From: Flavobacteriales bacterium
Lineage (GTDB): Bacteria; Bacteroidota; Bacteroidia; Flavobacteriales_E; Vicingaceae
DNA: 64,000 nucleotides
Direction: 5' to 3'
Assembly (NCBI GenBank): GCA_013359255.1
Contig: JABWCF010000003.1
Coordinates: forward strand, 239,246 to 303,245
Both the position numbers and the translations under genes were made by a program. The notes under the pieces were generated by a model. It ran no database searches, was not told where the DNA came from, and was given only the letters and a program-made list of their open reading frames with translations. Numbering within the stretch: position 1 is the first letter of the stretch; each line of letters starts with the position of its first letter. This document shows, piece after piece, positions 60,905 to 63,413 of the stretch.

Positions 60905-62035
60905 TTAATTCGCTTTAAGTAATTTGGCTATCTTAAAACTCAAATCGAGCAGCAAAATTTTTGCATTGGCATTTCGTTCTAAATCCGCTATGGCCTTATT
61001 TATTTCGGTGGTTAGAGGAATAATATTTTTTTCGTTTACAAATTTCGAGAGTTTGGAAAGGCTTTCTTTTGTTTCTCCTTCTGTTTTTGCTAAGTCGTTT
61101 ATGTGGTAACGTATCACTATACACTCTCTAAGCATTCGGGTAGTGTATTGTAAAAAGTTTTTCATACTTTCTCGGGGCAAACCGGCAGTGCTTTCGCTCC
61201 ACCTAATCATTTCGGGGATTTTTCTCGCAAATGCGTACCGAAACCAGGTAATAAACAGGTTAAACTGAGAAGATATTTCTTCTTCTTTCTCTATTAATGT
61301 TAAGGCTTCTGCATAGTTGCCATCGGCCATAAGGGCTACCTGCATGGCTGTTTCATGGTTTAGCTGATATTCTTCTTTAAGTTTTTCTGCTATTTCTTTC
61401 TCTTTTAGAGAGGTAATTTTTACCAATTGAGTGCGAGAAACAATAGTGGGCAACAATTTATCGTAGTCTTCTACCACTAATAAAAAAACGGTTTTTTCGG
61501 GTGGCTCTTCCAATACTTTAAGGAGTTTGTTGGCGGCTGCAATGTTCATGCGTTCGGCCATCCAAATTACCAAAATGCGATACTCTGCTTCGTAGGGTTT
61601 CAGGTTTAATGCTTTTATCATTTCGGCACTCTCTTCTACCGAAATATTTCCTTGTTTATTTTCAGAACCAAGATTTTCTAGCCATTGAGCTAAACTCAAA
61701 TAGGGGTTTTTCAAAAAACTCTTTCTCCATTCAGCAATAAAAAAACTGCTTACGGGTTTTGTTTTTATTTTTTCGGTGGTAGTTACCGGAAAAAAGAGAT
61801 GTAAATCGGGGTGTACTAATTTTTGCATTTTGATACACGATGGACATATACCACAAGAATCGGTTTCGGTTTTTTGCGTGCAAAAAATATATTGGGCATA
61901 AGCTAATGCCAAAGGCAGTGACCCTGTTCCCTCTTTGCCATAAAACAATTGTGCATGGCTGATGCGGTTGTCTGTAATCGTATGAAGTAGTCTTTGTTTT
62001 ACTTCCTCCTGACCTATTATTTCGGAAAATTTCAT
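60905..62035 (-). CDS. holB: DNA polymerase III subunit delta'
   Basis: FSEIIGQEEVKQRLLHTITDNRISHAQLFYGKEGTGSLPLALAYAQYIFC, CGICPSCIKM, LLKVLEEPPEKTVFLL. Confidence 0.9.
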   Translation of the reverse strand: MKFSEIIGQEEVKQRLLHTITDNRISHAQLFYGKEGTGSLPLALAYAQYIFCTQKTETDSCGICPSCIKMQKLVHPDLHLFFPVTTTEKIKTKPVSSFFIAEWRKSFLKNPYLSLAQWLENLGSENKQGNISVEESAEMIKALNLKPYEAEYRILVIWMAERMNIAAANKLLKVLEEPPEKTVFLLVVEDYDKLLPTIVSRTQLVKITSLKEKEIAEKLKEEYQLNHETAMQVALMADGNYAEALTLIEKEEEISSQFNLFITWFRYAFARKIPEMIRWSESTAGLPRESMKNFLQYTTRMLRECIVIRYHINDLAKTEGETKESLSKLSKFVNEKNIIPLTTEINKAIADLERNANAKILLLDLSFKIAKLLKAN

Positions 62036-62189
62036 TCCTTTTTTCTTGCCTCAAACCTACTGAATTAATTTGTATTACTTGTTGTATAAACTTGTTGGGA
62101 ATACGAATTTTCTTTCAAGTACTTATTGGTCATTAATTAGCCCTTTCGTTATCTAATTAAACGTTTTGGAATTCTCAAAAATATTTCGT

Positions 62190-62197
62190 TAACTTTA
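62190..62197 (+). promoter_or_regulatory. Bacteroidota -7-like element TAACTTTA
   Basis: 5 of 6 defined positions of TAnnTTTG; ends 21 nt before ATG 62218. Confidence 0.45.
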
Positions 62198-62217
62198 CTT
62201 GCACAAAAATTTACACC

Positions 62218-63413
62218 ATGCACACACCACACAAAAACAACAAGGGTACATTTACCCCCCCCCTTCTAAGCTACTAAATATCAATTTGTTATGCTTGTTT
62301 ATGAGCATATTTCCCTTTTCGGCCATTAGCCAAAACCTGCCCAACACCTTGCCCGATACAGGTTTTGTAGGCGTAGGCACCAATAACCCCACCTGTAATT
62401 TTCAAGTAATAGGGCAAAGCCAAATAAGCGGTAATCTAACCGTAGACAGTAGCCTTACTATTTCCGATTCGGCACGCATAGACAATAATCTGCGAGTAAA
62501 CGGACATTTATTTGTAGGTAAAAACGCATATATTACCGATACCACTTTTTCTAATGTAATGCGAGTGCATCGAATCACTCCAAGTACAGGCGATAGCTTA
62601 GTTTATTTTGGCGATAGCTCCTTGGTGGTAAATACTATTTCACATTTAATTTACCCCGAAGCCGATTTTGATATTCCGAATCCTATTATCAAAGGCACAG
62701 GTGTGGGCAGTCCGAACATAAGCCCCAAAGGCGATTATTCCGTAGCCGTAGGAAATAGAATAAACATTGATGCCAATGCCAAAAACAGTGTGGCTATTGG
62801 CACAGGTGTTTTACCTAATGGCCCTTCCTTGCAACAATACATTCCTAATTCCATTATGCTGGGTGCTAACAGTAATTTACCTACCCTATTTATTTCGCCC
62901 GCAAATGGCATAAACACAAGGGGTAAAGTGGGTGTAGGCACCAGCAGTCCACAAGCCAAATTGCAAGTAAACCAAAGCGAAGAAAACGAAAAAGCTTTTT
63001 CTGTTTTTAACCCAAACCAATCGGAAAACGGATGCAACGGCATAGATGTATTTCGTGTGTGGGGCAATGGCAACGTAGAAGCCAACGATGTAAGAGTAAA
63101 AGTACTGGGCTGGTGCGATGATGTTTTTGCTTCAGAATACAAATTACAAAGCATACCCGAATTGGAAAAATACATAAAACAACACCAACATTTACCCAAC
63201 ATACCCAGCGAAAAAGAAGTAATGGAACAAGGCATAAGCCTATCTGATATGAACGCTCGTTTGCTTAAACAAATAGAAGAACAGGCTTTGCACATTATAG
63301 AATTAAACAAACGTTTAGAAAAGTTAGAAGAAAACGGCGGTAAAAGAAAGCTGAAATCAGAACAACACCCACACCGTCATTGCGAGGGAGGAACGAGCGA
63401 AGCAATCCTTTGA
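62218..63413 (+). CDS. Secreted protein with C-terminal tail-fibre/chaperone-of-endosialidase-like segment; reading frame broken by C9 tract if ATG 62218 is the start
   Basis: Signal peptide KLLNINLLCLFMSIFPFSAISQ in the long ORF (only a TTG start at 62199 in that frame); GVGTNNPTCNFQVIGQSQISGNLTV; YKLQSIPELEKYIKQHQHLPNIPSEKEVMEQGISLSDMNARLLKQIEEQALHIIELNKRLEKLE. Confidence 0.75.
62255..62263 (+). repeat. C9 homopolymer tract in 5' coding region
   Basis: tttaCCCCCCCCCttctaag. Confidence 0.95.
63375..63408. repeat. Dispersed palindromic element type 1 (cgtcattgcgagg...gaagcaatcc)
   Basis: GTCATTGCGAG...GAAGCAATC, a recognisable dispersed-repeat sequence type; overlaps the last codons of the preceding ORF. 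Confidence 0.7.

Follow-up and report, generated by a model that had tools for sequence, protein, structure and literature searches.

The window, that is, the whole 64-kb stretch of DNA that was analysed, carries near its end a gene for a secreted protein with a run of nine cytosines (C9) directly in front of its signal-peptide segment. The positions of tract and gene were read directly from the window sequence, and the elements of the locus are as follows.

62165..62168, + strand: TTTG, -33-like element of a Bacteroidota promoter, as read in the sequence
62190..62197, + strand: -7-like box TAACTTTA
62199..62201, + strand: alternative TTG start, judged unused
62218..62277, + strand: ATG leader frame of 19 aa, OFF at C9
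62244..62257, + strand: GGGTACATTTACCC, weak hairpin adjoining the tract, as read in the sequence
62255..62263, + strand: C9 tract, the proposed switch; paralogues have C8 to C15 here
62264..62330, + strand: signal-peptide segment ending in KLLNINLLCLFMSIFPFSAIS, from translation; the same segment in all copies
62331..63413, + strand: secreted protein body with a conserved N-terminal module, a repetitive fibre-like middle and a C-terminal coiled coil

Between stops the long frame comprises 406 codons; counted from the TTG at 62199 it is 404 aa long, and it ends at 63413. Translation from the ATG at 62218-62220 yields at C9 the product MHTPHKNNKGTFTPPLLSY, terminated by TAA at 62275-62277, and in the window copy the signal-peptide frame lies one base off the frame of this ATG. 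The tract starts 37 nt after the A of the ATG, within the 5' coding region, and its repeat unit is not a multiple of three. The C9, the ATG with its early stop, the signal frame one base away and the position of the TTG had all been described in a first-pass annotation of this DNA and are exact on the sequence. Cleavage of the signal peptide is predicted, probably before Q. The hairpin adjoining the tract folds no more strongly than shuffled sequences (z -0.04); in some copies of a sister species its site is a perfect palindrome, GGGTAAATTTACCC.

The C9 at 62255-62263 is the sole one of the 64-kb window and by itself is at chance level, as at least one C9 occurred in 20 of 100 dinucleotide-preserving shuffles (mean 0.28). 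It stands above chance because it recurs: paralogues, and the sister species as well, have such a tract in the corresponding position. Searches of the window's own genome (G000; 2.92 Mb, 34 contigs) and of that sister species of the same genus (G001, CAJPFH01) demonstrated that -7 box, ATG 20-21 nt downstream, leader, poly-C tract and signal peptide make up a repeated 5' module, with nine leaders in the former genome and seven in the latter, besides one body whose contig ends directly past the tract position. The box, TAnnTTTA or TAnnTTCA, was found 20-21 nt upstream of the ATG in all 14 leaders checked and is kept in the syntenic orthologue of the window gene; most paralogues have TTG or TTTGG upstream of it at about the spacing of the window copy. 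The ATG occupies the same place in all paralogues compared, and the leader continues with AAGGGTA(A/C)AT, the C-rich tract and then (N)YLKISLLCFFMSIFTLSAISQ or a close variant. Whether paralogues sharing this 5' end also carry poly-C was a point raised by the first-pass annotation; the tract is present in 15 leaders of the two species, with the same ATG leader and differing lengths.

These lengths are C8, C9, C10, C11, C12, C14 and C15, some with one interrupting T, and copies with C16 and C13 are degenerate (CCTCCCCCTC); they are taken from draft assemblies, in which homopolymer lengths can be wrong and many copies lie at contig ends. In contrast to the hypervariable tract, the 70 bp on its 3' side align without a gap across 15 copies from both species. 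Read in the ATG frame, four of the 15 copies are ON (contigs C27, C24, C7 and C3 of the window's genome) and 11 are OFF, the latter including the window copy and 7/7 of G001; four of 15 is also the proportion expected of unselected frames. In several copies the tract is degenerate or the body broken, and part of the family is therefore decaying, with copies being lost.

All runs of at least eight C in both genomes were listed, and most were read in context. Among the listed runs of ten C or more, 13 of 19 lie in poly-C leaders, and the other long C runs of the two genomes mostly correspond to glycine or proline codons within reading frames. A second leader type has the form CTCATTATGAA(A/G)(C/T)A(C/T)TT followed by poly-C, with a TAnnTTTG box 27 nt upstream in most copies and a product starting MKHLPPP. 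It heads proteins of ~1390 aa that contain a PKD domain and a C-terminal sorting domain for type IX secretion, and also a glycine-rich secreted protein. These genes, together with the leaders with interrupted tracts and the internal C-rich tracts used as a control, were located as listed here.

L172 (G001:C31), L173 (G001:C28) and L171 (G000:C18:200300-206500): ~1390-aa PKD/type IX proteins with the MKHLPPP leader
L174 (G000:C4:230700-233500) and L175 (G001:C72): glycine-rich secreted protein with the second leader, OFF in both (C9, C12)
L192 (G000:C14:71857-71997) and L187 (G000:C18:317-454): interrupted-tract leaders, CCCTCTCCC in frame and CCCCTCCC out of frame
L106, L114, L123 and L133: internal proline runs after a CC motif in large Ig-like surface proteins, frame kept

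Among the second-leader copies of G001, one with C9 is ON over 1382 codons, and one with C8 is OFF (MKHLPPPFSGH, stop) before an intact frame of 1385 codons; in L171 the leader is ON and the frame is broken after ~270 codons. Two copies of the second leader carry the interrupted tracts CCCTCTCCC and CCCCTCCC, which may possibly represent alleles locked ON and OFF. The internal C-rich proline tracts of the other large surface proteins differ in composition and keep the frame in 4/4 cases, and the loss of frame is therefore special to the leaders. At a further locus, L130 (G001:C64:13900-16400), a small secreted protein (QQTAPPPPKTKN) has an in-frame C10 directly past its signal peptide. When 46 genomes of the family were searched for the pattern TTTG, ATG and C8 at leader spacing, the two genomes of this genus yielded many genuine leaders; elsewhere there were scattered single matches at about the level of a reversed-pattern control. 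Within the family, leaders in number are thus confined to these two genomes.

The syntenic orthologue of the window gene lies on contig 45 of G001 and has four upstream genes in common with it. Its tract is C10, against C9 in the window, and both genes are OFF from the ATG. Comparison over 337 codons gave a dN of 0.043 and a dS of 0.579, i.e. a dN/dS of 0.074, and the body of the OFF allele is under strong purifying selection. Both orthologues read OFF in their assemblies, and at this ratio their function has been maintained, in line with reversible silencing rather than decay.

The C run is very probably a random switch, because other secreted-protein genes share its start with C runs of different length: about two dozen of them in both species have the same kind of start. 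We accordingly regard the tract, which lies in the n-region of the signal peptide, as a simple-sequence contingency locus that switches ON and OFF by slipped-strand mispairing. Transcription would begin a few bases past TAACTTTA and translation at the ATG at 62218; a replication slip that gains or loses a C would bring the signal peptide and the body into the ATG frame or out of it, and C9 would leave the window gene OFF. The same switch would operate on the paralogue family and a second leader of like design on two other secreted-protein families, so that a clone would have a randomly drawn part of its repertoire on display. We infer that switching takes place within a population, that the ATG is used, that the products are exposed at the surface and that the variation is of benefit. 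Toggling by slipped strands, as proposed in the first-pass annotation, gains support from the ON and OFF paralogues, the range of C8-C15 and the purifying selection on the OFF body. Loss of mismatch repair was considered as a source of tract instability and rejected, as mutS is intact in both genomes.

Transcription can also slip on long homopolymers, and slippage of RNA polymerase or ribosome on the C run would produce a mixture of frames from a tract of any length, that is, constant low expression and no genetic switch. It would account for the intact bodies behind OFF leaders, including the 7/7 copies of G001. However, it offers no cause for the drift of the tract over three frames beside a downstream flank free of indels, and C runs are thought to be less slip-prone than A or T runs; this explanation is considered quite unlikely.

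It is somewhat less probable still that the gene is simply ON from the TTG at 62199 and that the C tract merely encodes a harmless stretch of prolines. The TTG frame of the window copy is indeed open through the tract. Nevertheless, this codon, two bases beyond the -7 box, is found in 3 of the 14 leaders checked and leads into the signal frame in the window copy only; furthermore, a TAA interrupts the TTG frame of the syntenic orthologue, the body of which is conserved just as well, and therefore neither start yields protein there at C10. For these reasons a TTG start appears unlikely, and the first-pass annotation, which had taken it as improbable, is supported. Past the tract, the sequence as read offers no in-frame start codon (ATG, GTG or TTG) from which a signal peptide of normal form would result: with the first ATG, ~10 residues remain ahead of the presumed cleavage site, and the TTGs of the window copy lie solely within the hydrophobic stretch. 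Finally, that the leaders head a decaying repeat family, with frame errors due to pseudogene damage or homopolymer sequencing error, is scarcely credible. Tracts are degenerate or bodies broken in several copies, and the assemblies are drafts; however, the two OFF orthologues show a dN/dS of 0.074 at a dS of 0.58, there are intact bodies of 360-443 and of 1385 codons, and indels are concentrated in the leader tract.

With regard to the protein under the control of the proposed switch, Pfam gave no confident domain for the window protein, the match to YadA_head (E 0.0037) being below the Pfam cut-off, and the AlphaFold monomer model, with a mean pLDDT of 32.5, is too poor for use. Its short beta repeats and C-terminal coiled coil look like those of a trimeric fibre. 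At the 3' end of the gene, window positions 63377-63412 hold GTCATTGCGAGGGAGGAACGAGCGAAGCAATCC, which resembles an interspersed repeat and looks to have lengthened the reading frame; it is missing from the C-terminus of the orthologue. Over the first 70 codons of its mature part the window gene shares 94% identity with a paralogue, as opposed to 46% for the whole body, and recombination therefore appears to spread the 5' module and the N-terminus among different bodies. Tentatively, and with some doubt, a portable cassette running from the promoter through start codon, poly-C tract and signal peptide to the N-terminal module might recombine onto different bodies; the genus would then shuffle its switch-controlled surface proteins and flip each of them randomly, and this would be the first simple-repeat phasome to be described in the order.

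Similar switches that turn genes on and off at random occur in Neisseria and Helicobacter. In Bacteroidota, phase variation has been known chiefly as DNA inversion, and most simple-repeat switches have come from host-adapted pathogens. Slipped-strand mispairing is the mechanism behind pilC and opa of Neisseria (PMC5953494). Neisseria pilC contains a poly-C/G tract of 9-20 in its reading frame (PMC5953494) and resembles the present locus in its homopolymeric coding tract, its surface-associated secreted protein and its ON/OFF frameshift by a one-base slip; the proteins are unrelated, however, the phylum is another, and here one leader heads a multigene family. In the Neisseria opa family, CTTCT repeats are found at several loci (PMC5953494), and here too several paralogues each have a 5' coding repeat switch of their own and give random subsets, whereas the opa repeat is a pentamer and not a C run, the Opa proteins are outer-membrane barrels, and switching has been shown experimentally for opa. 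A review of Bacteroidota describes inversion-based systems, including the invertible promoters of Bacteroides (PMC11868660), which belong to the same phylum and likewise turn surface determinants ON and OFF. There, site-specific inversion is used; in contrast, no inverted repeats surround the window promoter, and an invertible promoter was rejected for the window gene with zero inverted repeats of at least 10 bases in 61950-62500.

Earlier reports of simple-repeat switches in Flavobacteriales, in Flavobacterium or for type IX-secreted proteins were not found in the open-access literature searched; the mechanism is already known, and it is its occurrence in Flavobacteriales for which the papers searched gave no report. 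The leaders are defined loci at which repeat-driven variation can be checked in existing metagenome reads. Some two dozen poly-C-headed genes in an uncultured genus of Flavobacteriales suggest that repeat-driven surface variation extends beyond animal-host bacteria, and in a genus with no known animal host its possible benefit may be, for example, defence against phages or predators.
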